A stretch of DNA of 64,000 nucleotides. Origin: Sphingosinicella sp. LHD-64. GTDB lineage: Bacteria > Pseudomonadota > Alphaproteobacteria > Sphingomonadales > Sphingomonadaceae. Position 1 is the first letter of the stretch. Each line of letters opens with the position of its first letter. Positions 13,757 through 31,000 of this stretch are shown here, one piece after another. A program made the position numbers and the translations under genes. Below the pieces are notes generated by a model, which worked only from the letters and a program-made list of their open reading frames with translations, had not been told where the DNA came from and made no database searches. Location: the NCBI RefSeq assembly GCF_031157375.1, contig NZ_JAVIFV010000003.1, positions 756,001 through 820,000 on the forward strand. The letters run 5' to 3'.

Positions 13757-14322
13757 CCCAGCGCCACCGTCTCGGCGTCGGGCAAGGCGAGCTGCTGATG
13801 GCTGGCGACGAGCACGCCACCGCCACGGATGCGGTGGGCGGCGATGCCCTTTTCGAGCCGTTCGCACCCCTCGTCGTCGAGACCGTTGGCCGGCTCGTCG
13901 AGCAGCCAGAGCGGGGCGTTGGACGCGAGGACTCGCGCCAGCGCCGCACGCTTGCGCTGCCCGGTCGAAAGCATCCGGACCGGCACATCGGCGAGATGAC
14001 CGATGCCCATCGCCTCCAGACCCGGCGTCGCCGACACATCATCAAAGCTTGCCCAGAAGGCGAGCGCCCGGCCCAGCGTCTGGCGCTCGTCGAGCGCGAG
14101 ATGCTCGTCGGCGAGCGCCGCGTCCGCCCGTTCCACCGTGCCCGCGGCGGGCGCCAGCAGACCGGCGGCGACGCGCATCAGGCTGGACTTGCCTACACCG
14201 TTCGGGCCGGTGAGCAGCGTCGCATGGCCTGGCCGGAGGAGCAGGTTGAAATCCTCAAGCAGCACGCGCCCGCCGCGGCGGACCGTGACCGTATCGAGCT
14301 TGAGCAGCCCGTCGCCGCTCAT
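13753..14322 (-). CDS. ccmA: heme exporter ATP-binding protein CcmA
   Basis: A 189-residue ABC ATPase. Walker A is GPNGVGKSSLMR (about 39-50), the signature is MLSTGQRKRAALARVL near 118, and Walker B is LWLLDEPANGLDDEG. With CcmB it powers release of holo-CcmE during cytochrome c maturation. It is slightly short for the family (about 200-205). The start is an ATG at 14320-14322, overlapping the stop of the upstream metallopeptidase gene, so three genes here are chained by 4-bp overlaps. Confidence 0.93.
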   Translation of the reverse strand: MSGDGLLKLDTVTVRRGGRVLLEDFNLLLRPGHATLLTGPNGVGKSSLMRVAAGLLAPAAGTVERADAALADEHLALDERQTLGRALAFWASFDDVSATPGLEAMGIGHLADVPVRMLSTGQRKRAALARVLASNAPLWLLDEPANGLDDEGCERLEKGIAAHRIRGGGVLVASHQQLALPDAETVALG

Positions 14323-14732
14323 TCCGCCTGCGCCTCGATTGCGTGCATGTCGTCGTCGGAGAAGCCGAAATGATGGCCGACCTCGTGGACGATGACATGG
14401 GTGATGAGGTCTTCGAGCGCGACGCCGCTATCCGCCCATTCGTCGAGCAGCGGGCGGCGGTAGAGATGGATCATCGGGGGCAGCTCGCCCGAAACCCAGC
14501 TGTCCTGCTTGTCCATGGAGCGGCCGGAATAGAGGCCGGTCAGCTCGAACGCATCCTCGATGCCGAGGCTCGCCAGCACCTCGTCGTCGGCGAACTCCTC
14601 GATGCGCAGCACGATATTGGCGAGATGCTTGCGGAAATCCTCCGGCAGCCGCGCGATCGCCGCGTCCGCGAGCCGCTCGATCGCCGCCGCATCGGGCGCA
14701 TAGGTTTGACCATGGGCCATCCATGGCGACAT
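14319..14732 (-). CDS. small zincin-like metallopeptidase family protein
   Basis: A protein of about 137 residues with a C-terminal HVIVHEVGHHFGFSDDDMH segment carrying HExxH, typical of the short bacterial zinc metallopeptidase-like family found beside ccm or cell-division genes. The middle has the family-like region SGRSMDKQDSWVSGELPPMI and LYRRPLLDEW. The start could be 14732 (MSPWMAHG) or 14720 (MAHGQ); I kept the longer. It is the first gene of a unit with ccmA and ccmB. The substrate is unknown. Confidence 0.85.
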   Translation of the reverse strand: MSPWMAHGQTYAPDAAAIERLADAAIARLPEDFRKHLANIVLRIEEFADDEVLASLGIEDAFELTGLYSGRSMDKQDSWVSGELPPMIHLYRRPLLDEWADSGVALEDLITHVIVHEVGHHFGFSDDDMHAIEAQAE

Positions 14733-14759
14733 AGAGACTGATCGTTTGAGGAGGAAGAG

Positions 14760-15047
14760 ATGCCGTTGCTTTCCGAAGCCCAGCGCGAGGATGCGTTGGC
14801 CGGCCTGTCGGGCTGGACCTACCGCCAGGACCGCAACGGCATCGCGAAGACCTTCCGGTTCGACGACTTCGGCGAAGCCTTCGCCTTCATGACCCGGGTC
14901 GCGCTCGAGGCCGAGAAGGCCGATCACCATCCCGACTGGTCGAACGTCTGGAACCGTGTCGATGTGCTGCTCAACACCCACAGCGAGGGCGGCGTGACCG
15001 AAAAGGACGTCGCCCTTGCCCGGACCATGGACGCTATTGCGGGATAG
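14760..15047 (+). CDS. phhB: 4a-hydroxytetrahydrobiopterin dehydratase (pterin-4a-carbinolamine dehydratase)
   Basis: A 95-residue enzyme that dehydrates 4a-hydroxytetrahydrobiopterin, recycling the cofactor of phenylalanine hydroxylase. The family motif runs [18 protein letters not shown] with the active-site HH and W, followed by [15 protein letters not shown] strong ribosome site GAGGAGGAAGAG precedes the ATG. It diverges from the metallopeptidase gene; the 27-bp gap means the two promoters overlap their coding starts. Confidence 0.93.
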
Positions 15048-15102
15048 CTTGCTCTCCCCGGATACGCCCACTAGATGGACCGCTTCCAGCGCGATTGGAT
15101 TG

Positions 15103-15148
15103 CGGACCCGATTCACGCCCGCCGCTTCGCGGCGAACGATCGGGTCCG
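15103..15148. other. nested hairpin upstream of tRNA-Ser
   Basis: Outer arms CGGACCCGAT (15103-15112) and ATCGGGTCCG (15139-15148) are perfect complements. Inside, CGCCG (15120-15124) and CGGCG (15130-15134) form a second stem with loop CTTCG. The element ends 4 bp before the tRNA. It may end transcription of the pterin dehydratase gene or be a regulatory or processing structure for the tRNA. Confidence 0.45.
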
Positions 15149-15152
15149 ATGC

Positions 15153-15243
15153 GGAGCGGTGGCCGAGTGGTCGAAGGCGCTCGCCTGGAAAGTGAGTATA
15201 CGGCAAAACCGTATCGAGGGTTCGAATCCCTCCCGCTCCGCCA
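15153..15243 (+). tRNA. tRNA-Ser (anticodon GGA)
   Basis: The acceptor GGAGCGG (15153-15159) pairs with CCGCTCC (15233-15239), followed by G and an encoded CCA. The anticodon loop reads CTGGAAA with anticodon GGA at 15187-15189. A long variable arm (GTATACGG...CCGTAT) marks a class II serine tRNA, and GGTTCGAATCC is the T loop. The 3' end doubles as the attachment site of the island at 15230-31000. Confidence 0.97.
15230..15243 (+). repeat. attL core (tRNA-Ser 3' end)
   Basis: CTCCCGCTCCGCCA, the last bases of the T-arm and acceptor of tRNA-Ser including CCA. It is identical to 30987-31000; neighbouring bases on both sides differ. Confidence 0.8.
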
Positions 15244-15405: not shown

Positions 15406-15966
15406 TCAGGAACGGCAATCGAGCAGCATCAAACCGCGGATGACTCGTACATCCCAATTGCCCTTCGCTCGTTTGTCCTTGGAGAGCAAGACAGTGAAGT
15501 AGCAGAGGCATTTAATGAGAATGAGCGGATCGCCGTCGATGGGGATGAATCGCACGTCGACCCTCTCTTCTTTGGCGCTGCGCTGCAGTTCGTTCAATGC
15601 ATTCGCGGGCGTAGCTTCGACTAAACCGGGCCGCCGATATAACATCAGGCAGTCGACGTCCTTTGGAGAGGGCTTCAGCAGTTCGGTGAAGCTGCCACCG
15701 ATCACGATGGCGTCTATCACCAGGCTCAGTCGCTCCGCGTGCGACTTGACTCGATCTAGCGCGGCGGCGAGTTCATTTCGCTCAGGCCAATGTGCGGCAC
15801 GGGTCCGAAAATCTTCGTATCGTATAAGATATGGTGTTGCGTTGACCGGAGAGCTTTCTCTGACCGGACCGACGAAGGCGGGAAATCCCTGACGCTCAGC
15901 CTCATCAAAGGTCTGTCGAGAGACCGATGCGAATGGGTTCATACGCGACCTGTCGAGATCGTTCAT
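15406..15966 (-). CDS. nucleotidyltransferase-fold protein overlapping the fic gene
   Basis: A 186-residue protein with the nucleotidyltransferase-type motif IGGSFTELLKPSPKDVDCLMLY at about 89-110: GGS at the turn and DVD (103-105) as candidate metal ligands. The rest matches no family I recognize. The ATG at 15966 overlaps the stop of the upstream fic gene (ATGA), so the two proteins are probably made together. A longer in-frame reading upstream lies inside fic and is rejected. Possible roles are an antitoxin or modifier for Fic or a defence component; none is proven. Codon and base use are less GC-rich than in chromosomal genes. Confidence 0.7.
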   Translation of the reverse strand: MNDLDRSRMNPFASVSRQTFDEAERQGFPAFVGPVRESSPVNATPYLIRYEDFRTRAAHWPERNELAAALDRVKSHAERLSLVIDAIVIGGSFTELLKPSPKDVDCLMLYRRPGLVEATPANALNELQRSAKEERVDVRFIPIDGDPLILIKCLCYFTVLLSKDKRAKGNWDVRVIRGLMLLDCRS

Positions 15967-16739
15967 GTATCTGCCTCGGCCGTGGATCTTTGCCCGGCGA
16001 TCTCGCGATAGCATTCGATCATGTCGAGCACGAAGCGAAGTAAGGGCTGCCAATCCCCCCGCACCTCGGCGCAGCGAAGGGCGATCTCATACCCTCCGCG
16101 GGACTGCCGGGCAATCTCGTAAAAGGGAAAGTAAACGTTGGTGGGCATGCCTCCTTGTCGCAGGGCGTAGTTGAACAATGACCGGCCTACGCGGCCATTG
16201 CCGTCGACGAAGGGATGACAGTTCACTAGAAGCGCGAGGGCCATCGTCGCCCTAAAAATAGTCGGCTCCTCATAGTCCTGCACTAGAATCGACCGGATGC
16301 TATCTAACTGCTCCGGTATGGCTGCGGCTGCGGGAAAGCGCACACTGTTTCCGTCCCTGTCGCCGTTCAAGCAAATGTCGTCGCGTCGCCATTCGCTGGC
16401 TCCGTTCATGAGACGTTTATTGAGCGAGGCCAACTGCGATTTGAACGCGCTCCGGCTTGAGTTCTCAAGGGGGCCAAAGCGCTCGTTAACCCATTTGAGC
16501 GCCTCGCATTCGCTATGGGAGCGGTCTGGCTGCGATGGCACGACATTGAGCGCCATGAAATATTCCGACAGCGGATGCTGCAGGCGTAAGAAGTGCGTCT
16601 TAGGAGCCTCTCGCAAGATGTCGGTCGGGAGAGGATAAAGGCTTGGAAGCGCCCGCGAAGCCGCGGCTATCTCAAACCTTAGGTCCGGATCCAAGCCGGT
16701 GAACTGCGCAAGAACCAGGGGTTCACGAACGAAGATCAT
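15963..16739 (-). CDS. Fic family protein (predicted AMP/nucleotidyl-transferase)
   Basis: A 258-residue protein with a complete Fic active-site motif, HPFVDGNGRVGR at residues 175-186, where the His acts in transfer of AMP or a related group to a hydroxyl side chain. A proline-rich and helical N-terminal part (PTDILREAPKTHFLRLQHP) resembles the Fic/DOC N-terminal region. I do not see a clear inhibitory [S/T]xxxE[G/N] motif. The start at 16739 (MIFVREPL) is chosen because longer readings enter the ABC exporter gene. It begins 37 bp after the exporter's stop, on the same strand, and overlaps the following nucleotidyltransferase-fold gene. Confidence 0.88.
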   Translation of the reverse strand: MIFVREPLVLAQFTGLDPDLRFEIAAASRALPSLYPLPTDILREAPKTHFLRLQHPLSEYFMALNVVPSQPDRSHSECEALKWVNERFGPLENSSRSAFKSQLASLNKRLMNGASEWRRDDICLNGDRDGNSVRFPAAAAIPEQLDSIRSILVQDYEEPTIFRATMALALLVNCHPFVDGNGRVGRSLFNYALRQGGMPTNVYFPFYEIARQSRGGYEIALRCAEVRGDWQPLLRFVLDMIECYREIAGQRSTAEADT

Positions 16740-16776: not shown

Positions 16777-18963
16777 TCATTGGCCGACGCACTGTGAGTC
16801 CTCGCGAAGGGCGGTTGGCTTTTTCGGATGCATGTCCACACCGTCTTTCGGAACAGCGAATATGCTTCCATTGGAGACAAACAATACCCTGTCGGCAGCC
16901 GACACTGGGGCCGGTTTATGTGCAGACACGATCCGAGTAATGGGCAGCGCGGAAATGGCTTTGACGACGGATTCCTCTGAAGCTGGGTCGAGATTTGCTG
17001 TGCCCTCGTCGATGAAGAGAACTGATGGATTCGGATACAGTGCTCGCGCCAACAAGACCTTTTGCTTCTGACCGCCAGATAGTGCTGATCCCATGTCTCC
17101 CACGAGAGTATCGTAGCCCATCGGCAGGGCCTCGATCTCATCGTGAATGCTGGCGAGTTTCGCAACTTCTACAGCGCGTCCGATGTCGATCTCAGGATCG
17201 AAGAATGCAATGTTCTCAACGAGCGTGCCGGCGAAGAGCTGGTCGTCCTGGCTGACCACGCCGATCCGCCGGCGCCAGTCTTCCGGCGCCATGCTCGCCA
17301 ACGAGCGCCCATCGACCAGTACCTCACCGTAGCTCGGCTGGAACAGGCCCGTCATGATCTTGAGCAAGGTTGTCTTTCCGCCCCCGGACGGGCCGATCAG
17401 CGCGACCATCTCGCCGATCTCGATTCTTAGGTTTACGCTCCTCAGCACTTCCGGCTCGCTGGCGCCATAGCGGAATGCCACATTCCGGAGTTCGATTGCG
17501 CCCTTGAAGCTCTCGGTGCCCTGCGAGCGTTCTGTGTCGCCGCCTTCGGGCTGCGACAGTGCGATGTCGGCAATCCGGTTCAGATGAACGTCGAGCAGCT
17601 TATAGTTGATTGCCTGCTCGACCAACCGGGTCGCCGCGTCCAAGAACTGCTGCTTATATGCCTGGAAGGCGAAGATCATGCCCACGGTGAACGCGCCGTC
17701 CATCGCCATGCGAACCGCGAGGAAGACGAAAAGCACTTTCTCGACGGCGAGGATGAATTGGCCCAGCGCATCGAAGCCCGCGGTCAGCCGCCCAAGCCTG
17801 ATCTGTGCGTTGACGGCTTCCGCCTTGAGCTGCTGCCACGTGCGCTGGCGATTGCCCTCCTGTCCGAACGCCTTGACCGCGGCAATGCCCCGCACGCTCT
17901 CGATAAAGGCGCTATTCTCCCTTGCCGCCGCGGTGATGGCATCGATGTTGCGCATTCTGAGCGCGTGTAGGAAGCCGATCTTGAGCCCGGCGAACAGAAG
18001 CCAGGCGACGAGAGCAATGCTTCCCAGCAACGGGGAATAGACGAACATCAACGCGAGCGTAAGGAACGCCATCATGCCGTCGATGACGGCGGCGGCGAGT
18101 CCTTGGCTCAACAGCTGCGAAATTGCCTGTGTGGAGCCGAAGCGCGAGATGATGTCGCCGACATGCCGTTTCTCGAACCATGGCAGCGGCAGGCGCAGCA
18201 TATGGCGGCTGAGATTTGTGACGATCTGATACGACAGCGCGCTGCCCAGGCTCACGAGGATCAATGAGCGCAGCCAACCGGTCATCATGTTGATCACGGC
18301 GAGGCCGCCGAAGCCGATCGCCAGCATTAGCAATAGATCGGTGTCGAAGCTGGGAAATGCGGTGTCGACGGCGAGCTGGAGGTAGAAGGGCGTGGCGAGC
18401 GCCACGACCTGAAGGACGACGGAAAGCAGAAGGATGCTGCCAAGCGTGCTCCAAAGCCCCGTCAGTTTCGACCAGAGCTGGCTGATCCTGAGCTTTGAGG
18501 CCACGTTGCCGGGCCGGAACTTCTCCGATGGCGTCAATTCGAGCGCTACACCGGTGAAGTGCCTCGAAAACTCGTCCTCCCGCAGGGTGCGGACGCCTCG
18601 TGCTGGATCATGGATTTGATAGCGAGAACCACGCAGACGCCGCGTCATTTTTACCAGCACAACGAAGTGGTTCATGTTCCAGTGCAGGATCACGGGCAGC
18701 GGGATTTGAGCTAGACCGTCGATGTCACTGCGGAGCGGTCGTGCATGGAAGCCGACCTTTTCGGCAATATCCATCAACGCTTTGAGCGTCGTGCCCTTGA
18801 GCGACAGACCGAACCGGCGGCGCAGCGCAGGCATGTCGGTCTTAAGGCCATGATAGTCGGCGACCATTGCTAGGCAGGCGAGACCGCATTCGGTGCCCTC
18901 AGCCTGCTGGATCAATGGGGTCGCACGGCGGCCTGTTAGTTTGAGCAGACTGATTGCGGTCAT
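16777..18963 (-). CDS. peptidase C39 domain-containing ABC exporter (bacteriocin-type, CvaB/LagD-like)
   Basis: A 728-residue exporter in three parts. The N-terminal C39 cysteine peptidase (about 12-150) has QQAEGTECGLAC with catalytic C26, H99 in NHFVVL and D119 in IHDPARG, so the triad is intact. The membrane domain (about 165-450) has six predicted helices. The ATPase has Walker A GPSGGGKTTL, signature LSGGQKQKVLLARAL and Walker B VLFIDEGTANLD. Such proteins cut a peptide after a Gly-Gly leader and export the mature product. A matching leader protein lies two genes upstream and an HlyD adaptor beyond it, so they form one secretion system. No outer-membrane channel gene is present. Confidence 0.95.
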   Translation of the reverse strand: MTAISLLKLTGRRATPLIQQAEGTECGLACLAMVADYHGLKTDMPALRRRFGLSLKGTTLKALMDIAEKVGFHARPLRSDIDGLAQIPLPVILHWNMNHFVVLVKMTRRLRGSRYQIHDPARGVRTLREDEFSRHFTGVALELTPSEKFRPGNVASKLRISQLWSKLTGLWSTLGSILLLSVVLQVVALATPFYLQLAVDTAFPSFDTDLLLMLAIGFGGLAVINMMTGWLRSLILVSLGSALSYQIVTNLSRHMLRLPLPWFEKRHVGDIISRFGSTQAISQLLSQGLAAAVIDGMMAFLTLALMFVYSPLLGSIALVAWLLFAGLKIGFLHALRMRNIDAITAAARENSAFIESVRGIAAVKAFGQEGNRQRTWQQLKAEAVNAQIRLGRLTAGFDALGQFILAVEKVLFVFLAVRMAMDGAFTVGMIFAFQAYKQQFLDAATRLVEQAINYKLLDVHLNRIADIALSQPEGGDTERSQGTESFKGAIELRNVAFRYGASEPEVLRSVNLRIEIGEMVALIGPSGGGKTTLLKIMTGLFQPSYGEVLVDGRSLASMAPEDWRRRIGVVSQDDQLFAGTLVENIAFFDPEIDIGRAVEVAKLASIHDEIEALPMGYDTLVGDMGSALSGGQKQKVLLARALYPNPSVLFIDEGTANLDPASEESVVKAISALPITRIVSAHKPAPVSAADRVLFVSNGSIFAVPKDGVDMHPKKPTALREDSQCVGQ

Positions 18964-19127
18964 CTCTTCGGCCCCGAAGCTGCAGAACCGCCGCTGGTTT
19001 GCCTTTGATCCGGAGTGACGGTTGCATGGACGTGCTCAGCCGGATCGAGGCTCCGCAACGACAATAGTCCCGCAAGGCTCCAGCAGAATTCAGATCTTCT
19101 GAATGCGGTCCTCCGGTCATCGCTCAT
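18960..19127 (-). CDS. small ORF translationally coupled to the ABC exporter
   Basis: A 55-residue reading frame starting MSDDRRTAFRRSEF. A TGGAGG ribosome site lies 6-7 bases before its ATG at 19125-19127, and its TGA overlaps the exporter ATG by 4 bp, the arrangement used elsewhere in the operon. A moderately hydrophobic stretch (FCWSLAGLLSLRSL) sits near residues 14-27, followed by a polar tail. I recognize no family. It may be a translated leader for the exporter, a small accessory protein or a chance frame. Confidence 0.5.
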   Translation of the reverse strand: MSDDRRTAFRRSEFCWSLAGLLSLRSLDPAEHVHATVTPDQRQTSGGSAASGPKR

Positions 19128-19198
19128 GGCCGGCCTCCATGGTCTGATAGCAGCGGATCGCGCTTCAGATGGGTGCTCGCCTCCCTCCCACTCGACAC

Positions 19199-19885
19199 TT
19201 AGAGATCGGGATGAAACCACTGATAGTTGAGCAGTCGCGCGGTATCGCTGGAAACCTGCTGGACAACTCCGAGCTGCCCCGACGGAGCGTCGGCCGCCGG
19301 AAAGTAGCCAACGCCCAGGATCGGCGATTGAGATTCCAACAGGGGTTGCGGCGTGCTTGGCTGTTCGCCTGCGGCGCTCTTGAAGCTGGCGACCACCGAC
19401 TTCCCGCCAACTGTCCAGACACCAACATAGGACGTGACGAGCCGCGCGCCCTCCCGTCTGGCGCCCACTCTGGCCGCGTAGACAAGGGGAGCGCCTTCCA
19501 GTCGTGGCCCCTCCTGCGAGGACAGCGCGGAGGGCTCGACTGCTGTTGGACGCTGGCCGACCGTGGACAGCGAACCGTCCTCACCGATCGCCTTCACGCT
19601 GCCATCGGCGAACAAAATCTGCCCCATCTCGAAGGACCGCGCCTCGCGCGCGCAGGTGCCCGTCAACGTATGGGAGCGGTCCAGTCTCAATGCCCCCGGC
19701 GAGGTGGCCGAGAGCACAGTTGGCGGCCGCTCCAAAGTCTCAACCGAGGCACTGGCTGAAACGGCGCATTGCGGAGTGGCCGTCGCGGCGATGGCGGAAT
19801 TCGCGTGACTGGCCGAGCAACCTGCCACGGCGATTGCGATTCCGGTCATCTTTAGACCCGCACTATAAAATCTCAATCTATGCAT
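19199..19885 (-). CDS. predicted lipoprotein of the secretion locus
   Basis: A 228-residue protein with a signal sequence (MHRLRFYSAGLKMTGIAIAV) ending in the lipobox VAGC, so it is probably lipid-anchored. The mature part is rich in Ala, Ser and Val, with SFEMGQILFADGSVKAIGEDG and a later VTSYVGVWTVGGKSVV, which suggest beta structure. I recognize no domain. The start at 19885 follows GGGAG; an upstream ATG at 19921 would bury the signal peptide. It lies 55 bp after the double-glycine-leader gene. A role as immunity, receptor or maturation partner of the exported protein is inferred from position only. Confidence 0.7.
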   Translation of the reverse strand: MHRLRFYSAGLKMTGIAIAVAGCSASHANSAIAATATPQCAVSASASVETLERPPTVLSATSPGALRLDRSHTLTGTCAREARSFEMGQILFADGSVKAIGEDGSLSTVGQRPTAVEPSALSSQEGPRLEGAPLVYAARVGARREGARLVTSYVGVWTVGGKSVVASFKSAAGEQPSTPQPLLESQSPILGVGYFPAADAPSGQLGVVQQVSSDTARLLNYQWFHPDL

Positions 19886-19940
19886 GGGTGATCTCCCAGA
19901 GAATGAGGCGAATGACTCCACTGCTTCATTCTGAGATTAT

Positions 19941-20792
19941 TTACGGAATATTGTAATAGCGATTCCAGAACATTCCGGCATAATGATGAGGCAGATCATA
20001 GGTATAATAGGTTGTGGTGCTCCCGCCGCCCGAGGAGCCTCCGGAATCAACTTGAAACGTCGACACAGTCGATGAGTAGCTGCTGCCAGGATTTACCAAT
20101 ATCGACAGACCGCCGTTGGCCGCGATGGCGCGCGCTATGTCATTGGCCAGCCGCTCATTGTCGTCGTTCTCGGTTTGCGTGACTTGTCCGTCTGCATTGA
20201 TAACCGCGTTCAGTGCCCGGCCGGCGGCGGTCATGTGGCCGACTTCATGGAGAATGAGATAGTTCATGCCCCCGGCGAGCGCGTTGTACTGCTGTAGAGT
20301 GTCGATATTATAGCTCACAACGGGGTCCCCGCCGTTGTAACTTGCCTCCCCACGGGTTGTCCCATTCGCATAAACGTGGCCCACGTCGTAAATCGCGAAG
20401 TCGGTCTTGCTCCAGATCTCCTTCAACTCCGCGCCCGTTATCCTGGTGCCGTCAGCAAGGGTAATGGACGTATTATTCGGAATCGCGTTTATAGCGTTGC
20501 TGACCGCCGTAATCTGGGCATTAAGGGCGTCGACGGCCTGCTGCTCCGCCTGAGTAAGCGGTCGGCCGATCATGACCGTTACATCCTGGGAGGCGCTGTC
20601 TGGCGGCAGGACGCCACCCCCACCGCTCCCGTAATCACCTGCATACGGGTCTTCGAACATCTGCTCGTACCACCAAGGGTCGCTCCACGGATCATACGGA
20701 TGCGCGGTGATGGTGATGCTGCCACCCGCAACCAACTCCAATTCTTCATATGTGAGTTCGCGAATATTACGCTGGCATACATTCTCACGCAT
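19941..20792 (-). CDS. double-glycine-leader protein with HEVGH metallopeptidase-like domain (predicted exported cargo)
   Basis: A 283-residue protein. Residues 1-24 form a classic export leader: RELTYEELELVAGG, with cleavage expected after G24. The mature part begins SITITAHPYDPW, is rich in Trp/Tyr/Asp to about residue 52, then Gly-rich. HEVGH at 182-186 is a zinc-binding HExxH, and E213 in NERLANDIARA could be the third ligand, as in gluzincins. A Gly/Ser/Tyr-rich tail ends the protein. The ATG at 20792 is chosen because GGGAGGG lies 7 bases before it; an ATG at 20807 falls on that ribosome site. Its neighbours are an HlyD adaptor and a C39 exporter. Target and activity are unknown. Confidence 0.85.
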   Translation of the reverse strand: MRENVCQRNIRELTYEELELVAGGSITITAHPYDPWSDPWWYEQMFEDPYAGDYGSGGGGVLPPDSASQDVTVMIGRPLTQAEQQAVDALNAQITAVSNAINAIPNNTSITLADGTRITGAELKEIWSKTDFAIYDVGHVYANGTTRGEASYNGGDPVVSYNIDTLQQYNALAGGMNYLILHEVGHMTAAGRALNAVINADGQVTQTENDDNERLANDIARAIAANGGLSILVNPGSSYSSTVSTFQVDSGGSSGGGSTTTYYTYDLPHHYAGMFWNRYYNIP

Positions 20793-20884
20793 TTGCTTCC
20801 CTCCCATTTGTCGACATAGATTGGTCTTTGGCCAAACACGCTACTACACGCACCGTACTTTACTGGCCCTTCGTAGGTTGCAAC

Positions 20885-22144
20885 TCACCCTCCCCTTCGC
20901 ATCACCGCGTTGAGCGGTGTTAGCAGCCAGTCGAGGAACGAACGGCGGTCGAGGATGAGGTTGGCCGTCAAGGTCATGCCCGGCTGAAGCGGTAGGCGAT
21001 CTCCGAAAGCGGATACGGTTTGCGCGTTGGGGGCGACCTCGATTCGATATACTGGCTCTTCAATGCCGAGCGGTGCGGCTATCTGGCGCGGGTCGATCAC
21101 GGTGCGCGAAACGCTCACCACCCGGCCGGCGAAGCTGCCGAAGCGCTGATAGGGAAAGGCGTCGTAAAGCAGGCGCACCTCCTGTCCCGGCCGCACGAAG
21201 CCAATGGCCCGCGTGGGCGCATAGACTTGGACGCTCAGCGCGGAGCCTTCGGGGACGATCTCCATCAGTGGCACTGACGGCTCGGCGGTTCGCCCTGTCG
21301 CCGTCTGCAGGGCGGCCACCCGGCCTGAGACGGGTGCGGCGAGCGTATAGGCGCGCTCGCCGCGCAGCCGCGCCCGTTGCTGCGTCAGCGTCTCAGCCGA
21401 AGACCGGGCGACGACGACCTCGCTATCCGCGTCGGCCGCCACGCGCGCCAGCTCGGCCGAGGTGCGATTGCTCTCCGCTCCAAGCGAATTGTGCTGCTGG
21501 TGCAGGCGCGCCAAATCCTGTCGCGCGAGGATATAGCCCTGCCTGCGCCGTTCGACCTCGATCCGGCTGATGAAGCCGCTTTCAAGCAGTCCCGATACCC
21601 GCTCGAACAAGTCGCGCGCGGACGCCACGGCCTCTTCCTGAAGCGCGATTTGGCCAGCGAGGTTTGCACGCTGCTGCACTAAGCCCGCAAGCGTGGCGGC
21701 GAGCCTGGCCCGATCGCTGTCTGCTCTGCGCCCAGCCAGTCGAACTTGCTGCTCGGCCAACAGGCGCTGGCTCTCGATCGCGGTCAGGCTCTCGCCGATT
21801 GCACTGTCTCCGGCCTCGTCTGTCTGCTCGGTGCGGATGGTGGCTAGTCGCTGACCAACGCGCACCACATCGCCTTCAGAGACGAGCAGCTCCGTCACTT
21901 GGCCTGGGCGGATCGCAATGATTTTCGCCGAGGCGGCCTTTGTCGCGAGAATACCGCGCGCGGTCTCTGTGCGGGTATAGGTGCCAAGCGCAAGCCAGAG
22001 GCCGATCGCGATTACAATGCCGAAAATCAGCGAGACCAGGACGTAAACCCTTACGGGTTCCGCGAGGACGATTTCGCCCTCGATCCGCCGCCGCGCCTGC
22101 TCCACTTCCGAACGGAAGAGAGAATTAAGCGGCTCCGCGTTCAT
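20885..22144 (-). CDS. HlyD family periplasmic adaptor of the C39 exporter
   Basis: A 419-residue membrane fusion protein. A cytosolic N-terminus (EPLNSLFRSEVEQARRR) precedes one membrane helix (VYVLVSLIFGIVIAIGLWLAL) at about 33-53. Lipoyl half-motifs follow: IIAIRPGQVTELLVSEGDVV and later TLAAPVSGRVAALQTATG. A long alpha-helical coiled coil fills about 120-265. The C-terminal beta-barrel has YAPTRAIGFVRPGQEVRL. Its form is that of bacteriocin/colicin V exporters (CvaA/RaxA type). It is the first gene of the secretion unit and would link the inner-membrane exporter to an outer-membrane channel encoded elsewhere. Confidence 0.93.
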   Translation of the reverse strand: MNAEPLNSLFRSEVEQARRRIEGEIVLAEPVRVYVLVSLIFGIVIAIGLWLALGTYTRTETARGILATKAASAKIIAIRPGQVTELLVSEGDVVRVGQRLATIRTEQTDEAGDSAIGESLTAIESQRLLAEQQVRLAGRRADSDRARLAATLAGLVQQRANLAGQIALQEEAVASARDLFERVSGLLESGFISRIEVERRRQGYILARQDLARLHQQHNSLGAESNRTSAELARVAADADSEVVVARSSAETLTQQRARLRGERAYTLAAPVSGRVAALQTATGRTAEPSVPLMEIVPEGSALSVQVYAPTRAIGFVRPGQEVRLLYDAFPYQRFGSFAGRVVSVSRTVIDPRQIAAPLGIEEPVYRIEVAPNAQTVSAFGDRLPLQPGMTLTANLILDRRSFLDWLLTPLNAVMRRGG

Positions 22145-22548: not shown

Positions 22549-23031
22549 TCAGCCGACTCGCATGCCGACCACCTGGGCAAGGATAACCAGGACCATCACC
22601 GTCACCATGCCTGCAAGCCAGGCCCATGCTAGCGCATCCCGTTGCTGCTGATCCGTGCGCAGGCGACCGATCATCGCGTCAAGTCGCCGGGCAGCTTCAG
22701 CTTGCCCGTGTGCGGCTTCTACCAGCGCAGTGTGATCCGCAAGCCGGTTCGTCACGGCCGCCGCGTCGATCTGCTCGGCAATGTCCTTCGGCGTCAACGA
22801 TACGCCCGGTCGGCGATTCAGCTCATTGATCGCCTCATGCACCTGGCCCTGCGCCTTGATGAGCCTGGCCAGGTCGGGCGCATAGTCGCGTGCAGCGATT
22901 GCTTCCTGCCGCGCTGCGAACCCCTCCACGGCGGACGTAAGCAGCGCGAGCTGGCGCCGCATCGCCTCAAACGCCGCCGCTGCATCGTCCGGCGGCGGCT
23001 CCGGCTGCTGGCCTACGGCGATTTCCCTCAT
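22549..23031 (-). CDS. DUF6118-like protein coupled to TraA
   Basis: A 160-residue protein: an Ala/Gln/Leu-rich helical, probably coiled-coil body (MRRQLALLTSAVEGFAARQE and further heptad-like stretches) and a C-terminal membrane anchor (WLAGMVTVMVLVILAQVVGM). Its ATG overlaps the traA stop by 4 bp. Proteins of this form follow TraA-type relaxase genes in sphingomonad elements; I recall the DUF6118 label but could not check it. It may tether or modulate the relaxosome at the membrane. Confidence 0.7.
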   Translation of the reverse strand: MREIAVGQQPEPPPDDAAAAFEAMRRQLALLTSAVEGFAARQEAIAARDYAPDLARLIKAQGQVHEAINELNRRPGVSLTPKDIAEQIDAAAVTNRLADHTALVEAAHGQAEAARRLDAMIGRLRTDQQQRDALAWAWLAGMVTVMVLVILAQVVGMRVG

Positions 23032-26000
23032 CGGCTGAGCCCCCGGCCGCGCCCAAGGGAGTCGATCAGCGCCTGACCGATCGAGCGGCCATGCATCTGA
23101 TCACCGATGTCACGGCCGATGCCGCCATCTTTGGCGGCGCCCAGGCGCCATTCGGGCGACCAGTGTCGGCCAAGGCCAAGATCGCGAGCATGGCGGCTGA
23201 GCGCATTTACCATGGCCGGATCCTTGTCGATCCGGCCCGCAAGCGCCTTCATCCGGCCGACCACCTTTTCGCGGGCTTCTTCGTTCTGCCAGCCAAGGCG
23301 GTCATGCTCGGCCTTCAGCCGCTTCCAACTTTCAGCGAACCTCGCGGCGCGAAGGTCGGGGTTGGTGCGCAGCTCCGTTTCGAGCTGCATCGCCCGGATC
23401 GCGGCCTGCGTTCGTCCCTTCGCCGCATTCGTGGCGAGCGCGGGGTTGCGATCGAACGCTGCGGCCAGGTCGCTCGAACCGCCGGGCGCCACATGGTCGA
23501 GCGCCTCGCCGGCGCGGGCCAGACCGTCGCGCTGATAGGCGAGCGCCGGAAGGCTCTGCACCTTCATCCGCGCCACCTCCTCATGTGCAGCCGCATAGCG
23601 TTCGACCGCACGTGACAGCGGTTCATCGTGCGCGCGGACAGGTTCGATCGGCTGCGCATTGAGCCTGAGCCAGTCAAACGGACTGCGAGCGGCAGGCTGC
23701 GATTCCGCCTCCCGCGCCAGGTGCGTGCGCAGCGAAGCGAACATATCGCGCTTCGGCATCGGCTCGTGGTGGACGTGGCGTTCGTCCACGAACCTGTTGT
23801 GGTCGAGCGCCTCCAGGATTGCGGAGCGATCATAGCCGCGCGTCTCGGCGAACCGCGCGCGGACCTCCTCATAGTCGAGCGTGGTATCCTTCGCCCGCTC
23901 GCGGCCCAGCACGCGGGCGAGCTGGCGCATATCGGCGAAGTCGTCCTGGCCATAGTGGAGCTCGACCGCATCGCGATGCCGGGACAGTGCGACATAAGCG
24001 CTGTGCTGGTCGATGCCGGGGGTAGCGAGCACATGGGTGCGATCGACGGTGACACCCTGCGCCTTGTGAATGGTGGTCGCATAGCCGTGGTCGATGTCGG
24101 CATAGTGCTTGGTGTCGAACGCGACCCGCCGCCCGTCATCCAGGCGCGCATCGATGCGTTCGGGACTCGCCTGTTCGACGGTGGCCAGTGTGCCGTTCTT
24201 GACGTCGAGATCGCGCTCATTCCTGAGGAACATGAGCCGATCGCCGGCCCCGAACAAGCGGGTGCCGCGCGCGGTTCTGACGGCAGATTCCTTCGTGATC
24301 GTCCCATCCCGCTTCAGGGCATCGCGGGCAAGGTCATTGAGTTCGCGCACATCATCGCGGGTATGCGCCAGGATGACGAGCGAGCGCGCCGGATCGCTGC
24401 GCCGATCGGCGTCCCAGCTCTCGATTAGCCCAGCGCGGGCGTGCGCGCGCGTGTCTGCTACGCGAATCGCCCCATGTTCCTCGTACAGGCGCAGCGCCTC
24501 GGCGGCACGTCCGGTGGCGAGCTCGCGGGTCGCCTGGCGCTGCCATTCCTCGCGCTGCCGGCGCACCTCGCCGATCTCGGCGGCACCGTGCCGCTCGGCG
24601 AGCAGCCGAAACGCGGCCCCGGCCTCGATCGCCTGGAGCTGCGCAACGTCGCCGACCAGCACCACCTTGGCGCCGGCACTGTCGGCCTCGGCCAGCACCC
24701 GCTCCATCTGGCGCGAGCCGATCATGCCCGCCTCGTCGATCACCAGCACGTCGCTGGCACTCAGGCGCTCGCGGTCCTGGGTCCATTGATGCTCCAGGCT
24801 GGCGATCGTGCGGGAGGCTATGCCCGAGCCGCTTTCCAGGTTCTCGGCCGCAATGCCGGACAATGCCGCGCCCCGCACGCGATAGCCTTCGGTCTCCCAG
24901 ATTTCGCGCGCGACGCCCAGCATGGTCGACTTGCCGGTGCCGGCATAGCCGACGACCAGCGACAGGTTCTGCTTGCCTGTGATATGGCGGACCGCGTCGC
25001 GCTGTTCAGCAGACAACAGGGGGAGCGCGCCGCGCGTCCCGGCGGTATTACCCCCCAAGAATGCCGCCGGGACGCGATGGCGGTCGCGATCCGCCAGCCT
25101 CTGCGCGGCGCGGACCATGCTGAGCTCAGTCTCGATCATTCCGCGCGTGGTGAACCGCTCCTCGCCCCGTCCGTCGCGGCCGAGTGCGACCAACTGGTCG
25201 CAGCCGCGCATCGCCGCCAGCACGTGGTCGAACTGCTCTTTGCCCTCCGAATGGCGATGCGCCAGCCGCGCCATGTCGCGTATCGTGAACGTCGATTGCT
25301 GGTGAGTGATCGCGTCGAGGCCGATGATGGGATCGGCGATGATCCGCTCGCCGTTCCGGCGCGCGATCTCCAGATGCTCGTCGAGTCGCTCGCCCTCGAG
25401 ACCTTGATCCGGCCGGCGCGATGCTGCCGGACCGATCTTGTGCTGCGGCTCCAGGTCGATGCCCTGATCGTGCAGGGAGCGATGATCGATCCGTGCGTCG
25501 ATGTCGAGTTCGGCGAGGCGCTGGTTGACTTGGGCAGCCCATGCTTCGCGCCAATGCTGCAGCAGCTCGGTGCGGTTCCAGTCGCGCACCTTGGCGCCGA
25601 ACCCGTCAGCGTCCACTTCGCGCATGGTCAGCATGACATGGGCGTGAGGCTTCGCCAGCCCGTCCGCGCCCGTGTCCCAATGGATATTGAGGTCGGCGAT
25701 CATGCCGCGGGATACGAACTCGCGCGCCACGAACTCCCGTGCCAGCCGTATGCCTTCGGCCTGGTCCAGCTCGCGGGGCAGCGCGAACTCGGCCTCGCGC
25801 GCGAGTTGCGCATCCTTGCGCACCTCCGCGGCTTCGACCGCATTCCACAGTGTGGCGCGGTCGGCGAACTCGGCCGGCGCAGTATCCGGCAACATCACCT
25901 CGGAGTGGATGACGCCGGCCTTGTTGGTGAAGTCGTGATCACGGTCGAGGCGCTGGTCATGCAGCCGCGACGCCGAGCGATAGGCTGCCGAGGCCAAGGC

Positions 26001-26054
26001 ACTTGCTCCGGTCGCCCGCGAGATCACCTTCACGCTGAAGTGGTAGATCGCCAT
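23028..26054 (-). CDS. traA: Ti-type conjugative relaxase/helicase TraA (MOBQ)
   Basis: A 1008-residue relaxase that nicks oriT and unwinds DNA for transfer. The N-terminal MobA/MobL domain has Y25 in SAAYRSASR as the likely nucleophile and the three-His metal site H125 (NIHWD), H137 and H139 (KPHAHVMLT). A helicase domain follows, with Walker A VVGYAGTGKSTML and DVLVIDEAGMIGSRQM as motif II, and a superfamily I end (DYATTIHKAQGVTVDRTHV-like). The start at 26054 (MAIYHFSVKV) matches the family; a TTG at 26063 adds three residues. The gene diverges from traC/traD with the probable oriT between. Confidence 0.95.
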   Translation of the reverse strand: MAIYHFSVKVISRATGASALASAAYRSASRLHDQRLDRDHDFTNKAGVIHSEVMLPDTAPAEFADRATLWNAVEAAEVRKDAQLAREAEFALPRELDQAEGIRLAREFVAREFVSRGMIADLNIHWDTGADGLAKPHAHVMLTMREVDADGFGAKVRDWNRTELLQHWREAWAAQVNQRLAELDIDARIDHRSLHDQGIDLEPQHKIGPAASRRPDQGLEGERLDEHLEIARRNGERIIADPIIGLDAITHQQSTFTIRDMARLAHRHSEGKEQFDHVLAAMRGCDQLVALGRDGRGEERFTTRGMIETELSMVRAAQRLADRDRHRVPAAFLGGNTAGTRGALPLLSAEQRDAVRHITGKQNLSLVVGYAGTGKSTMLGVAREIWETEGYRVRGAALSGIAAENLESGSGIASRTIASLEHQWTQDRERLSASDVLVIDEAGMIGSRQMERVLAEADSAGAKVVLVGDVAQLQAIEAGAAFRLLAERHGAAEIGEVRRQREEWQRQATRELATGRAAEALRLYEEHGAIRVADTRAHARAGLIESWDADRRSDPARSLVILAHTRDDVRELNDLARDALKRDGTITKESAVRTARGTRLFGAGDRLMFLRNERDLDVKNGTLATVEQASPERIDARLDDGRRVAFDTKHYADIDHGYATTIHKAQGVTVDRTHVLATPGIDQHSAYVALSRHRDAVELHYGQDDFADMRQLARVLGRERAKDTTLDYEEVRARFAETRGYDRSAILEALDHNRFVDERHVHHEPMPKRDMFASLRTHLAREAESQPAARSPFDWLRLNAQPIEPVRAHDEPLSRAVERYAAAHEEVARMKVQSLPALAYQRDGLARAGEALDHVAPGGSSDLAAAFDRNPALATNAAKGRTQAAIRAMQLETELRTNPDLRAARFAESWKRLKAEHDRLGWQNEEAREKVVGRMKALAGRIDKDPAMVNALSRHARDLGLGRHWSPEWRLGAAKDGGIGRDIGDQMHGRSIGQALIDSLGRGRGLSR

Positions 26055-26098
26055 CGCGACCAAACCATCTACACCTCAAGCAGCACGTCGGCACGATG

Positions 26099-26135: not shown

Positions 26136-26226
26136 ACTGGGCCGTGCCAGACTGTCTCGGCGACTCTACAGCTTTGCGCGTGCCGCTCTATTATCATGCC
26201 CGCATCACGCAGCAATGGAGACTGTG

Positions 26227-26532
26227 ATGCGTAAATCCCGTGACTTCGACTTGGAACTCCAGGCTCTGGCCGAGAAGGCGCGGCAACTCAAGGAACGCCG
26301 CGTGCGACAGCTCGGCGAGTTGGTCGCGGCAACGGGTGCCGACGCGCTCGATGCCGATCTGCTGGCCGGTGCGCTGCTCGATGCGGCGGGCACGAAGGAC
26401 GCGGGCATAAAGGAGGGCTGGCGCAAGCGGGGCGCGGCCTTCTTTCTGGGCAAGGCGCGCGGGCCTGTACAAGGAACTGAACGCCAGCCGGGCAGCGCTC
26501 CGGCGCGCGAGGGCGGCGCGGCATCGGCTTGA
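26227..26532 (+). CDS. TraC-like conjugal transfer protein
   Basis: A 101-residue protein, MRKSRDFDLELQALAEKA at the start, then LKERRVRQLGELVAATGADAL and GWRKRGAAFFLGK. This is the pattern of the small TraC/TraD-type accessory proteins next to TraA in alphaproteobacteria, with a basic helical N-terminus. The start at 26227 follows GGAGA; an ATG at 26215 overlaps that site. It lies directly downstream of oriT and is followed by TraD after 22 bp. A role in relaxosome assembly is inferred. In some databases this family is called TraD, so the letter is uncertain. Confidence 0.75.
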   Translation: MRKSRDFDLELQALAEKARQLKERRVRQLGELVAATGADALDADLLAGALLDAAGTKDAGIKEGWRKRGAAFFLGKARGPVQGTERQPGSAPAREGGAASA

Positions 26533-27985: not shown

Positions 27986-28903
27986 CTAAGCCGCCGCCCT
28001 TTCGAGTTCAGCGATCCGCTCCGAACAGATTTGATGAACGACACGCCCCAGCTCCTCCACACGTTCACCCAGCCAGGCGAGTTCTTCGTTGCTGATGCGG
28101 TAATGCTTCGAATAGCGCGCCTTCACATAGGCATCTTTGAGCTTCTGGAACATCGCGCGCTCCTTGCGCGTGCGCTCGGGCCAGATGCCGAACAGCCGGC
28201 GATCTTGTCCCTCCGCCAGCGAACGCAGGAAGGCGATATTGTGATTGTAGGGTGTGTAGAAGGTCAGGGTTAGGAGCAGGCCGCTGTAGAGCCGCTCGGT
28301 CGCTTGATGAAGGTCAAAAGCGGCCTTCTTGAAGTCTCGATCATCCACCGCATGGCGGAAGCCGCGATAGAAGCTCAGGGAACTCGATAAACTCTCCTCG
28401 AAATACTCCTTCGCGGCTGCCAGCGCTTGCACAGGCGTCTTCGGCTTGGGCGTATGCAACTCGCGATCATCGGCTTCGTAAAGCGCGATCCCGTCCTTCG
28501 CGACTTCCATGAAGAATACGCGTCCATGCGCGAGGCCGTCGTTCACCTCATGCAGCGAATGCACGATGAAGTTGACGGGCGTCCCGAGCGTCTTCTCGAT
28601 CGTGTAGGCGCGGATCAGCCGCTCCTCGGCCTTGGTCCAATATGCTGCCCGATCGGCCAGTTCCTTCTGGTTCACAATGATGAGCAGATCATAGTCGGAC
28701 TTGTATTGATTGGCCGACAATGGCGCATCGATCCAGTCACCGCGCGCATAGCTACCGAACAGGATGATCTTGAGGATGCGCGCGCCCTTGCGCCGCCCGG
28801 TCGCGGCTTCGGTCGCCGCGCGGAACTCTTCGAAAATGATCCCGACGAAATGTTCCAGCTCGCGCTGCTTGTTCGCCGGCAGATGATCGAGATCGGTTCT
28901 CAC
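27986..28903 (-). CDS. MNT-HEPN fusion protein (nucleotidyltransferase + HEPN domains)
   Basis: A 305-residue protein. The N-terminal MNT nucleotidyltransferase has FGSYARGDW at 49-57 and KSDYDLLIIV with the Asp pair near 70-72. The C-terminal HEPN domain (about 150-295) has FYRGFRHAVDDRDFKKAAFD and ARYSKHYRIS, close to the R-x(4-6)-H RNase motif but with R-x3-H spacing. Separate MNT and HEPN proteins form toxin-antitoxin pairs in which MNT adenylylates HEPN; here both are in one chain. The GTG at 28903 (MRTDLDHLPANKQ) is preferred to a TTG at 28939 because the conserved N-terminus begins there. Confidence 0.85.
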   Translation of the reverse strand: MRTDLDHLPANKQRELEHFVGIIFEEFRAATEAATGRRKGARILKIILFGSYARGDWIDAPLSANQYKSDYDLLIIVNQKELADRAAYWTKAEERLIRAYTIEKTLGTPVNFIVHSLHEVNDGLAHGRVFFMEVAKDGIALYEADDRELHTPKPKTPVQALAAAKEYFEESLSSSLSFYRGFRHAVDDRDFKKAAFDLHQATERLYSGLLLTLTFYTPYNHNIAFLRSLAEGQDRRLFGIWPERTRKERAMFQKLKDAYVKARYSKHYRISNEELAWLGERVEELGRVVHQICSERIAELERAAA

Positions 28904-29376
28904 CCTGGAATCTTTCCGGAAATCGCCGGCACCTGGCAAGGATAATTAGGTTTCGGCCTTCGGTGGCGGGTACGGAAGCCCACCGGTCCCGTAACAGCGG
29001 CGGGCCGCACCCGCAGGGCCGGAACGCCAGTGAAGGACCCCGCGCGCAGCGCGGGGTTGCGGCGCGGCGCTGCGGGACCACAATGGGCGACACCCCGCCC
29101 AGAGCTGCCGCGTTGATGGCGAATCACCGCACAAGATTCACTCTGATCTTGGGACGAGATGGCCACGTCTGCGGCACTCGGCAGCCGATCAATCCCTGCC
29201 GAGACCGCATGAGAAAAATTGTCTTCATACCCTTTCGACGACTCTGGCCGCCAGGGGACGACATAGGCCGCCACAGCGCACCGGCACTGTTTTCAGCACT
29301 CTTGCGCAGCGGTTAGGGACCGCCATTCTGCTCTCAGGGGAGCGCATCAACCACCAGACGATCGAAGAGTGTTCCC
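28904..29376. other. 473-bp noncoding gap with a strong hairpin
   Basis: Between MNT-HEPN and alpA. It contains a perfect 8-bp stem with 3-nt loop, CCCCGCGC-GCA-GCGCGGGG (29037-29055), with no T-run on either strand. The right part probably holds the alpA promoter. No coding frame with recognizable features was found. Confidence 0.4.
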
Positions 29377-29599: not shown

Positions 29600-30808
29600 T
29601 CAAGCGGCCTGCCGCGCCGGATGCAGGGGCACGACCTTGGCTCCGGCCTTCTTAGCGCAGTAGCCCGCCCAAGCCTCCATGAGCTTGCGGCGCTTGTCGA
29701 ACAGGTCGCCGCGCCGATAGGCGGCCTCGGCCTTGTTGCCGATGGTATGGGCGAGGGCCATTTCACATACTTCATGGGGAAAGCCGGTCGTCTCCGACGC
29801 CCAATCGCGGAAGGTGGAACGGAAGCCGTGAACGGTGATCTCCGCCTTCATTCGTCTAAGCAGCATCGCCATCGCCATGGATGACAGCGGCTTCTTCGGT
29901 TTGGGGCCGGGGAACAGATAACCCTCCGTTCCAAGCTTCGACATCGCTGCCACGATCTCCATGGCTCGCGGCGACAGCGGCACGCGATGTTCCCGTCCTG
30001 CCTTCATCCGTTCGGCCGGAATGGCCCAGACCTTCTTCTCGGTGTCGATCTCATCCCACTGCGCGCCGAGCACTTCACCTGAACGTGCGGCGGTGAGAAT
30101 GGTGAACTCCAATGCCCGCGCCGCAACGGCGCTGCGTACCCGCAGGTCCGCCATGAAGTCCGGCATGGCATCGTAGGGCAGCGCCGCGTGGTGCCCGCGC
30201 GAAAGCCGCTGGCGCTTGGGCAGGAGCTGGTCGAGATGCCCGCGCCAGCGCGCGGGGTTCTCGCCGGAGCGATGACCCTTGGCCTTCGCCGCGTCCAGCA
30301 CATTCTCAATCCTGCCGCGCAGCCGCTCTGCGGTTTCCGGCGTGCGCTTCCACAAAGCTTGCAGCACGTCGAGCACGTCCTGCGTGCCAATCGCGTTCAC
30401 CGGCTTGCCGCGCATGGGTTTGGCATATTTGGTGAGCGTCATCGTCCATTGTGCTGCGTGCTTAGCGTTGCGCCATGACGGCTTCATCGCCTCGACATAG
30501 GCGTCGGCGCATTCGCCGAAGGTGGGAATGCGTTCGTCTTTCGCTCGCTCGGTTTTGGGATCGCCGCCCGTGGCCAGTATCTCGCGCAGCTTCGCGGCTT
30601 CGGCGCGGGCATTGGCAAGCGACAGGTCGCGTCCGCCGCCAAGGCCAAGCTCGGTACGCTTGCCGTCTCGCGTGTACATGAAAATCCAGCGCCGCCGCCC
30701 GTGAGGATCGATGAAGAGATAGAGGCCGCCGCCATCCGAGTGCCGGCCCGGCTTGGTGATCTTCGCCGACTGCGTCGCGCTCAGTTTGTTGAGTGTCCGT
30801 CTTGCCAT
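29600..30808 (-). CDS. tyrosine-type site-specific integrase (P4/DUF4102 type)
   Basis: A 402-residue integrase. The N-terminal DUF4102 domain (GRHSDGGGLYLFIDPHGRRR) is followed by a core-binding domain and a catalytic domain with the expected residues: Arg in TAARSGEVLGAQW, HxxR in ITVHGFRSTFRDW, His in MALAHTIGNKAEAAYRR and the nucleophile Tyr in the same segment. It joins attP to the tRNA-Ser 3' end. It lies at the end of the island far from the tRNA, 179 bp from attR, reading inward. Confidence 0.95.
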   Translation of the reverse strand: MARRTLNKLSATQSAKITKPGRHSDGGGLYLFIDPHGRRRWIFMYTRDGKRTELGLGGGRDLSLANARAEAAKLREILATGGDPKTERAKDERIPTFGECADAYVEAMKPSWRNAKHAAQWTMTLTKYAKPMRGKPVNAIGTQDVLDVLQALWKRTPETAERLRGRIENVLDAAKAKGHRSGENPARWRGHLDQLLPKRQRLSRGHHAALPYDAMPDFMADLRVRSAVAARALEFTILTAARSGEVLGAQWDEIDTEKKVWAIPAERMKAGREHRVPLSPRAMEIVAAMSKLGTEGYLFPGPKPKKPLSSMAMAMLLRRMKAEITVHGFRSTFRDWASETTGFPHEVCEMALAHTIGNKAEAAYRRGDLFDKRRKLMEAWAGYCAKKAGAKVVPLHPARQAA

Positions 30809-30986: not shown

Positions 30987-31000
30987 CTCCCGCTCCGCCA
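30987..31000 (+). repeat. attR core
   Basis: CTCCCGCTCCGCCA, identical to the tRNA-Ser 3' end at 15230-15243. It lies 14 bp from the stop of nagA and marks the right junction with the chromosome. Confidence 0.8.

Follow-up and report, generated by a model that had tools for sequence, protein, structure and literature searches.

What does a bacterial exporter with a C39 peptidase domain send out of the cell, and to what end, when the leader protein encoded beside it carries a HEVGH motif? The question is raised by a locus at positions 16777 to 22144 of a stretch of 64,000 nucleotides from Sphingosinicella sp. LHD-64, which as a whole is called the window here. A preliminary description of the window had proposed a self-contained secretion locus on a mobile island, with a metallopeptidase-like protein as a new kind of C39 substrate. 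Our analysis suggests, with a probability of roughly 70%, that the locus is a bacteriocin-type polymorphic toxin-immunity unit with a C39 type I system as its exporter. Exporters of this type are established to cleave the leader and export the protein, and the same would apply to the cargo of the window. According to the list of open reading frames (ORFs), the genes on the minus strand run in the order HlyD, cargo, lipoprotein, C39 ATP-binding cassette (ABC) exporter, Fic and DUF6932. The features on which the argument depends are the following.

16777..18963, minus strand: C39-peptidase ABC exporter (Peptidase_C39 E 1.6e-36, ABC_membrane 1.8e-34, ABC_tran 1.2e-30)
20885..22144, minus strand: HlyD-type periplasmic adaptor (HlyD_3 E 1.4e-16, over cut-off)
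19941..20807, minus strand: cargo, a double-glycine (GG) leader protein of 288 amino acids (aa)
20721..20756, minus strand: core of the double-glycine leader, LTYEELELVAGG, residues 18-29 (strict pattern match)
20703..20720, minus strand: SITITA, a TonB-box-like motif at the start of the predicted mature protein (shuffle p 0.0005 at a matrix score of 7.7)
20088..20558, minus strand: zincin-like catalytic domain, residues about 84-240, common to RHS tips and orphan toxin-lipoprotein pairs
20235..20249, minus strand: HEVGH, residues 187-191; all 7 sequences in profile A9 of this domain have both His
20154..20156, minus strand: Glu218, candidate third zinc ligand, present by eye in 6 of the 7 A9 sequences
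19199..19885, minus strand: lipoprotein (lipobox VAGC, by script), candidate immunity protein

The gene order given in the preliminary description stands, except for a small ORF placed between the lipoprotein and the exporter. This GTG-initiated frame (18960-19220, 86 aa) has no family match and no counterpart was noticed in the loci read; the 235-bp gap that holds it may be non-coding. The C39 site of the exporter is complete (Q20, C26, H99 and D119), judged by the catalytic residues named in passages of PMC8277102. The adaptor aligns with TIGR01843 at E 8e-47 but stays below the curated cut-off (160 vs 209 bits), and it is 46% identical to the L023/L037 adaptor. An outer-membrane channel was expected to come from elsewhere, and this agrees with the genome, where 12 PF02321 matches over cut-off form six pairs with one frame per pair, none of them on the window's part of contig C3. 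By sequence, the locus thus appears to have what a C39 type I secretion system needs: a catalytic C39-ABC protein, a GG leader, an adjoining adaptor and a TolC-type channel in the genome.

The mature cargo has the predicted size of 259 residues that had been proposed from the ORF and its leader, with a computed mass of 27.7 kDa and a pI of 4.3. Its predicted first residue is Ser30 when counted from the ATG at 20807; the Ser25 named earlier is the same residue counted from Met6. The leader has L(-12), E(-8), L(-7) and GG and so matches the consensus published in PMC8277102, in the passages on such leaders. The cargo is the only strict leader match among 346 window ORFs (at least 60 aa, first 60 residues searched), and the same pattern gave 2 matches in the 2622 ORFs of loci L076-L113, both in one transporter-like stretch.

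The cargo has no Pfam or NCBIfam match over cut-off. The Tox-MPTase1-5 families are present in Pfam, and no Pfam-A model matches the cargo over cut-off. There was no match to PDB sequences with the cargo, and the 6 matches obtained with profile A9 were at E 0.14 or worse, none of them credible. Searches of plasmids with the cargo and the lipoprotein gave no match, Foldseek found nothing at E 0.001 or better among viral structures, and cargo patterns matched 10 stretches of the genome contig collection, 0 of which were relatives. A model of the domain (predicted local distance difference test score, pLDDT, 71) resembles zincin metallopeptidases. In this model HEVGH is part of the helix that spans residues 119-140, and Glu218, which is model residue 157, belongs to the one at 154-171; in the A9 alignment Glu218 sits 8 residues ahead of the invariant Arg226. 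The modelled domain thus has the HExxH helix of zincin metallopeptidases and a next helix with a candidate third ligand, which agrees with a zincin-like fold and gives no sign contrary to the zinc site suggested earlier. A fold of the whole cargo (264 aa, 3 sequences, pLDDT 36) was discarded.

Exporter clade, cargo swapping and the domain elsewhere

An adaptor-alignment search of the genome contig collection gave 83 relatives, of which 80 were kept, and added searches matched 12 of 119 family genomes and 32 of 296 order genomes at the set limit; 31 further regions entered the exporter-locus comparison. In a tree of 51 exporters (50 different), the window exporter and 17 others form one clade with support 100/100. 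All 18 clade loci have a GG-leader protein of 126-444 aa in its mature form within 3.7 kb of the exporter. In 20 of the remaining 33 rows the GG peptides are no longer than 84 aa, and 12 rows are labelled none. The last is L075 (Caulobacter sp. 602-2), which is on a long branch and is a second, apparently independent, large-cargo case. At L075 6852-8368 two GG-leader proteins with TonB-box-like starts lie on the strand opposite to the exporter.

Cargo-size labels were assigned by reading. L146 is labelled large, although its VCGG leader was missed by the pattern; L055, with a 33-aa peptide at a distance of 3 kb, and L053, where the match is probably due to chance, are labelled none; the L030 peptide is on the opposite strand; and pattern matches in L066, L070 and L074 were discarded as chance. 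The tree omits L039, where the contig ends, L042 and L047, whose exporter frame is broken or odd, the unlabelled L025, L052, L058, L060, L063, L064, L066, L067, L070, L072, L074, L154, L155, L161 and all loci that lack a complete exporter frame. L042 and L047 have the same adaptor identity, and no cargo was seen there. L023 and L037 are one contig, which was entered once, whereas L061 and L149 are identical in sequence and were both entered. Outside the tree, L073 (3290-3694, from a Caulobacterales metagenome-assembled genome) encodes a GG-leader protein of 119 aa mature length near HlyD, and no C39 exporter was detected at this locus.

The cargos differ far more than the exporters. Among 66 exporter pairs that are at least 75% identical, only 2 have related mature cargos (E 1e-3 or better); the exporters of L034 and L046 are 95.8% identical and their cargos are unrelated. 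HExxH occurs in 4 of the 19 clade cargos (window, L038, L045 and L044), and a transmembrane-like stretch in five (L034, L041, L046, L048 and L144). No Pfam model names any of the toxin parts over cut-off; for the leader of L041, the score exceeds the ComC cut-off. Judged by these sequences, the clade has the constant delivery part and the exchanged C-terminal domains by which polymorphic toxins are recognized. The suggestion of a new C39 substrate holds as far as the unusually large cargo is concerned, but the cargo is not a one-off: it belongs to an 18-locus clade with swapped cargos, and its domain is also found at RHS tips.

Two other cargos may be mentioned. At L037 731-1243 a second GG-leader cargo lies 5' of HlyD and is followed by a small secreted protein; its CYVHDLNY motif, which has no Pfam match, we take to be phospholipase-A2-like. 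L044 8028-9425 encodes a cargo of 444 aa in its mature form with HEFTHVIQ and weak Peptidase_M91 and eCIS_core similarity, followed by a membrane peptide of 55 aa.

The catalytic domain of the window is rare. A single-sequence search found it in 5 of 396 order genomes, the own genome included, and a search of class genomes with profile A3 in 1 of 385, which is the own genome. Profile A9 matched 11 of the 396 order genomes at E 0.01, again with the own genome counted: G230, G185, G098 and G030 were already in the profile, G232 (9e-9) and G380 (1.6e-8) were new, and weak matches (E 0.002-0.008) came from G128, G207, G270 and G036 together with a second one in G232. The domain is found in C39 cargos at L038 and L045 (probability 92.5, E 5e-7), with an RHS tail and a lipoprotein at L008 and L009, as an orphan beside a lipoprotein at L006 and L176, as a lone relative at L007, and as a relative with HKVSH and a small ORF downstream at L177. 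As far as sequence comparison goes, the putative toxin domain is thus common to two types of delivery, C39 cargos and RHS tips. HExxH is altered to HDFGH or HKVSH in relatives at L009 1-636 and L177 8823-9551, and these proteins are possibly inactive or altered in function.

Toxin, immunity and entry

We propose that the C39 domain would cut the cargo leader after GG, and that a protein of 259 residues would leave the cell by way of the ABC exporter, HlyD and a TolC-type channel whose gene lies elsewhere. This protein would consist of an N-terminus rich in Gly, Asp and Pro and, at its C-terminus, a zincin (HEVGH and probably Glu218). The toxin would then reach the periplasm of a sensitive neighbour and cleave a target in its envelope, and the co-encoded lipoprotein in the producer envelope would block it. 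Antibacterial use is likely because cargos are swapped, the domain is shared with RHS proteins and a lipoprotein gene is adjacent, and a periplasmic site of action is suggested by the likely envelope location of the partner proteins.

The lipoprotein, which most likely starts at the ATG at 19885, is best read as a candidate immunity protein on the basis of its sequence and position. A homologue follows directly after the cargo homologue of L006 (BLAST E 9e-21, 30%), and no match was found among the other partner proteins compared. Signal peptides, lipoboxes and membrane helices were called by eye or by script, and on reading, the next gene after the cargo encodes an exported or membrane protein in 18 of 19 cases, the exception being L147. 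A script flagged 12 of the 19 (window, L035, L036, both of L037, L040, L043, L044, L045, L046, L049 and L146) and 6 were recognized by eye only (L034, L038, L041, L048, L144 and L145). Of the partners examined, Pfam names just two over cut-off, an abhydrolase (L146) and an SNase (L043). Comparison of the partner proteins left one common origin for all of them unproven. The partners of two unrelated cargos, at L040 14072-15079 and L145 6421-7110, share a SPGGD ... HSAC pattern and have no Pfam match over cut-off. We assume that the pattern is like that of ClpP/SppA-type serine hydrolases, and these partners could be a form of enzymatic immunity.

The preliminary description had named cargo homologues without a GG leader or a nearby exporter as evidence against its proposal, and six such loci were found (L006, L007, L008, L009, L176 and L177). 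Their proteins have no GG leader by pattern and the stretches no exporter or adaptor by tblastn, which is literally the case named there; four of them resemble the same toxin module in other surroundings. L006, L008, L009 and L176 have a lipoprotein of their own beside the domain, so a mobile toxin domain fits them better than a refutation of export does; L008 and L009 are short contigs (5.9 and 3.0 kb).

It could also be that the cargo is a secreted protease for scavenging or surface remodelling, with the lipoprotein as its anchor or chaperone. The zincin-like fold of the model would suit such an enzyme, the toxin role is argued from sequence and a model, and the partner families are mutually unrelated, with two partners that look enzymatic. 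We nevertheless consider a scavenging protease unlikely, as unrelated cargos stand under near-identical exporters, the domain sits at RHS tips and is rare in the genomes searched, and the locus is on a mobilisable element. Even less probable is that the HEVGH protein is non-catalytic or self-processing and carries a smaller bacteriocin that is released from it. The relatives with HDFGH and HKVSH would agree with a carrier, but the window protein retains HExxH and a candidate third ligand, and both His are invariant in the A9 sequences.

How the toxin would enter its target is a further question. An extension that is compatible with the toxin-immunity reading, and that we put forward tentatively since we lean slightly against it, is that removal of the leader exposes a TonB box and that the protein enters like a colicin via a TonB-dependent receptor. 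The exposed N-terminus reads I-V/T-V/I-T-A/G and is followed by a Gly/Asp/Pro-rich linker. We built a matrix from the TonB boxes of 30 of the 55 receptors of the own genome and scored the first 35 mature residues. Of the 21 large cargos, 13 had a shuffle p below 0.01 (11 of the 19 clade cargos, the window among them, and both of L075), compared with 1 of 36 small GG-leader ORFs from other exporter loci, which were taken with no filter on exporter distance. The sole small case is a GG peptide of 58 aa with QEIVVTAPR at L148 5343-5738. There is a precedent in colicin M, for which passages of PMC11658791 place a TonB box within the unstructured N-terminus, at residues 2-6, and passages of PMC8469651 describe action in the periplasm. 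Several points argue against such an entry. Seven of the 21 large cargos have p above 0.1 and L038 has 0.017, the window motif SITITA is without an acidic residue, L037b, L049 and L147 have further good copies deeper in the protein, and no receptor-binding domain was identified in the cargos. Moreover, DEIVVxG is not confined to these cargos. It is present in further ORFs near L177 and in the L006 and L176 proteins, which are leaderless, and may therefore be a motif of the envelope in general or an element of export.

If all of this is taken together, living Sphingomonadales cells may secrete colicin-like polymorphic bacteriocins via the C39 clade. Leader cleavage would uncover a TonB box and allow receptor entry without producer lysis; zincin, phospholipase-A2-like, pore-like and other tips would replace one another while the exporters stay nearly identical, and RHS systems would share the zincin tip as well as envelope immunity proteins. 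We offer this wider picture as a speculation, with the odds against it as a whole.

Mobile element and neighbouring genes

The locus lies in an element of 15.8 kb, bounded by the 3' end of a tRNA-Ser gene and a 14-bp repeat at 30987. Its features and the genes next to the exporter are these.

15153..15243, plus strand: tRNA-Ser(GGA), presumed integration site
15230..15243, plus strand: presumed attL, 14-bp repeat of the tRNA-Ser 3' end
30987..31000, plus strand: presumed attR, identical 14 bp
29600..30808, minus strand: tyrosine integrase (PF00589 E 1.6e-13, PF13356 E 2e-19)
23028..26063, minus strand: MobA/MobL relaxase-helicase (PF03389 E 1e-71)
26215..26532, plus strand: TraD-type conjugal transfer protein (PF06412 E 1.2e-17)
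15963..16739, minus strand: Fic/DOC protein (HPFVDGNGR), possible accessory gene (PF02661 E 2.4e-10)
15406..15966, minus strand: DUF6932 protein, 3' of Fic (PF22014 E 6.5e-11)

The mobile island seen in the preliminary description is supported by the 14-bp tRNA-Ser repeat together with the integrase, MobA/L and TraD. An empty tRNA-Ser site was not found in congeners at the 5 loci examined; 23 of 26 genomes, the own genome counted, had any match in this search. Within the element, 27986-28939 encodes a HEPN and nucleotidyltransferase-type protein (PF05168, PF01909). Just outside it, at 14319-15206, there is another HEVGH protein, presumably an ordinary chromosomal minimal zincin.

The Fic gene starts at the ATG at 16739, 37 bp past the exporter stop, and the operon probably extends beyond the exporter into Fic and DUF6932. 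Of 18 large-cargo exporters, 7 have a Fic pattern at most 5 kb away, vs 2 of 20 small-cargo exporters (p 0.058), and the pattern missed the Fic of L043 (HCFQDGNGR). This is a trend only, and we dropped Fic as a firm part of the system. Fic proteins near large-cargo exporters were seen in the window, L038, L041, L045, L048, L043, L044 and L144; Fic lies between exporter and cargo, together with a sulfotransferase-like gene, in L038, L041, L045 and L048.

Comparison with known systems

The likenesses and differences given here refer to passages of the papers cited. As in the polymorphic toxin systems of Zhang et al. 2012 (PMC3482391), the clade combines a constant trafficking part with an exchangeable C-terminal toxin and a neighbouring candidate immunity gene. 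Among the toxins described in that study are the zincin families Tox-MPTase1-5, which are typically joined to RHS repeats. In 300,000 of its 357,715 characters neither 'type I secretion' nor 'T1SS' occurs, and its passages name no C39 GG-leader route like that of the window. With microcin V and CvaAB (PMC10231218) the locus shares a C39 ABC protein, a HlyD-type adaptor, a GG leader, a TolC encoded elsewhere and a linked immunity gene. The cargos of the class II microcin subgroup are below 10 kDa, and in a library export falls at 116 aa, whereas the mature window cargo has 27.7 kDa and those of the clade 126-444 aa. RTX proteins are likewise large cargos of C39-family type I exporters, some of which, such as CyaB, keep an intact C39 domain; their signal is C-terminal and uncleaved (PMC8277102), in contrast to the N-terminal GG leader found here. 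The layout also resembles the alphaproteobacterial type I bacteriocin Cdz of Caulobacter (PMC5380434), with its immunity and a TolC elsewhere, but Cdz consists of two glycine-zipper proteins of 86 and 84 aa and the window encodes a single predicted zincin of 288 aa. The Cdz glycine-zipper proteins are the only type I example named among antibacterial secretion systems in the relevant passages of PMC9990079, and among the open-licence papers returned by our searches, no title or abstract start describes polymorphic toxins that are large, have a GG leader and belong to a C39 system.

For C39 exporters of Gram-negatives that remove GG leaders, a passage of PMC10231218 describes cargo below 10 kDa. 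A C39 clade with swapped cargos of about 13-48 kDa would be an added delivery route for polymorphic toxins. It would supply toxin and immunity families that are as yet unnamed, and it would show in nature how a leader can direct whole enzymes into secretion. With TonB-dependent colicins (PMC8469651, PMC11658791) the cargo may share an N-terminal TonB box, a flexible linker, periplasmic action and envelope immunity; if the motif is functional, C39 secretion would be linked to colicin-type import. Unlike colicins, the protein of the window has a dedicated secretion system and a removable leader.

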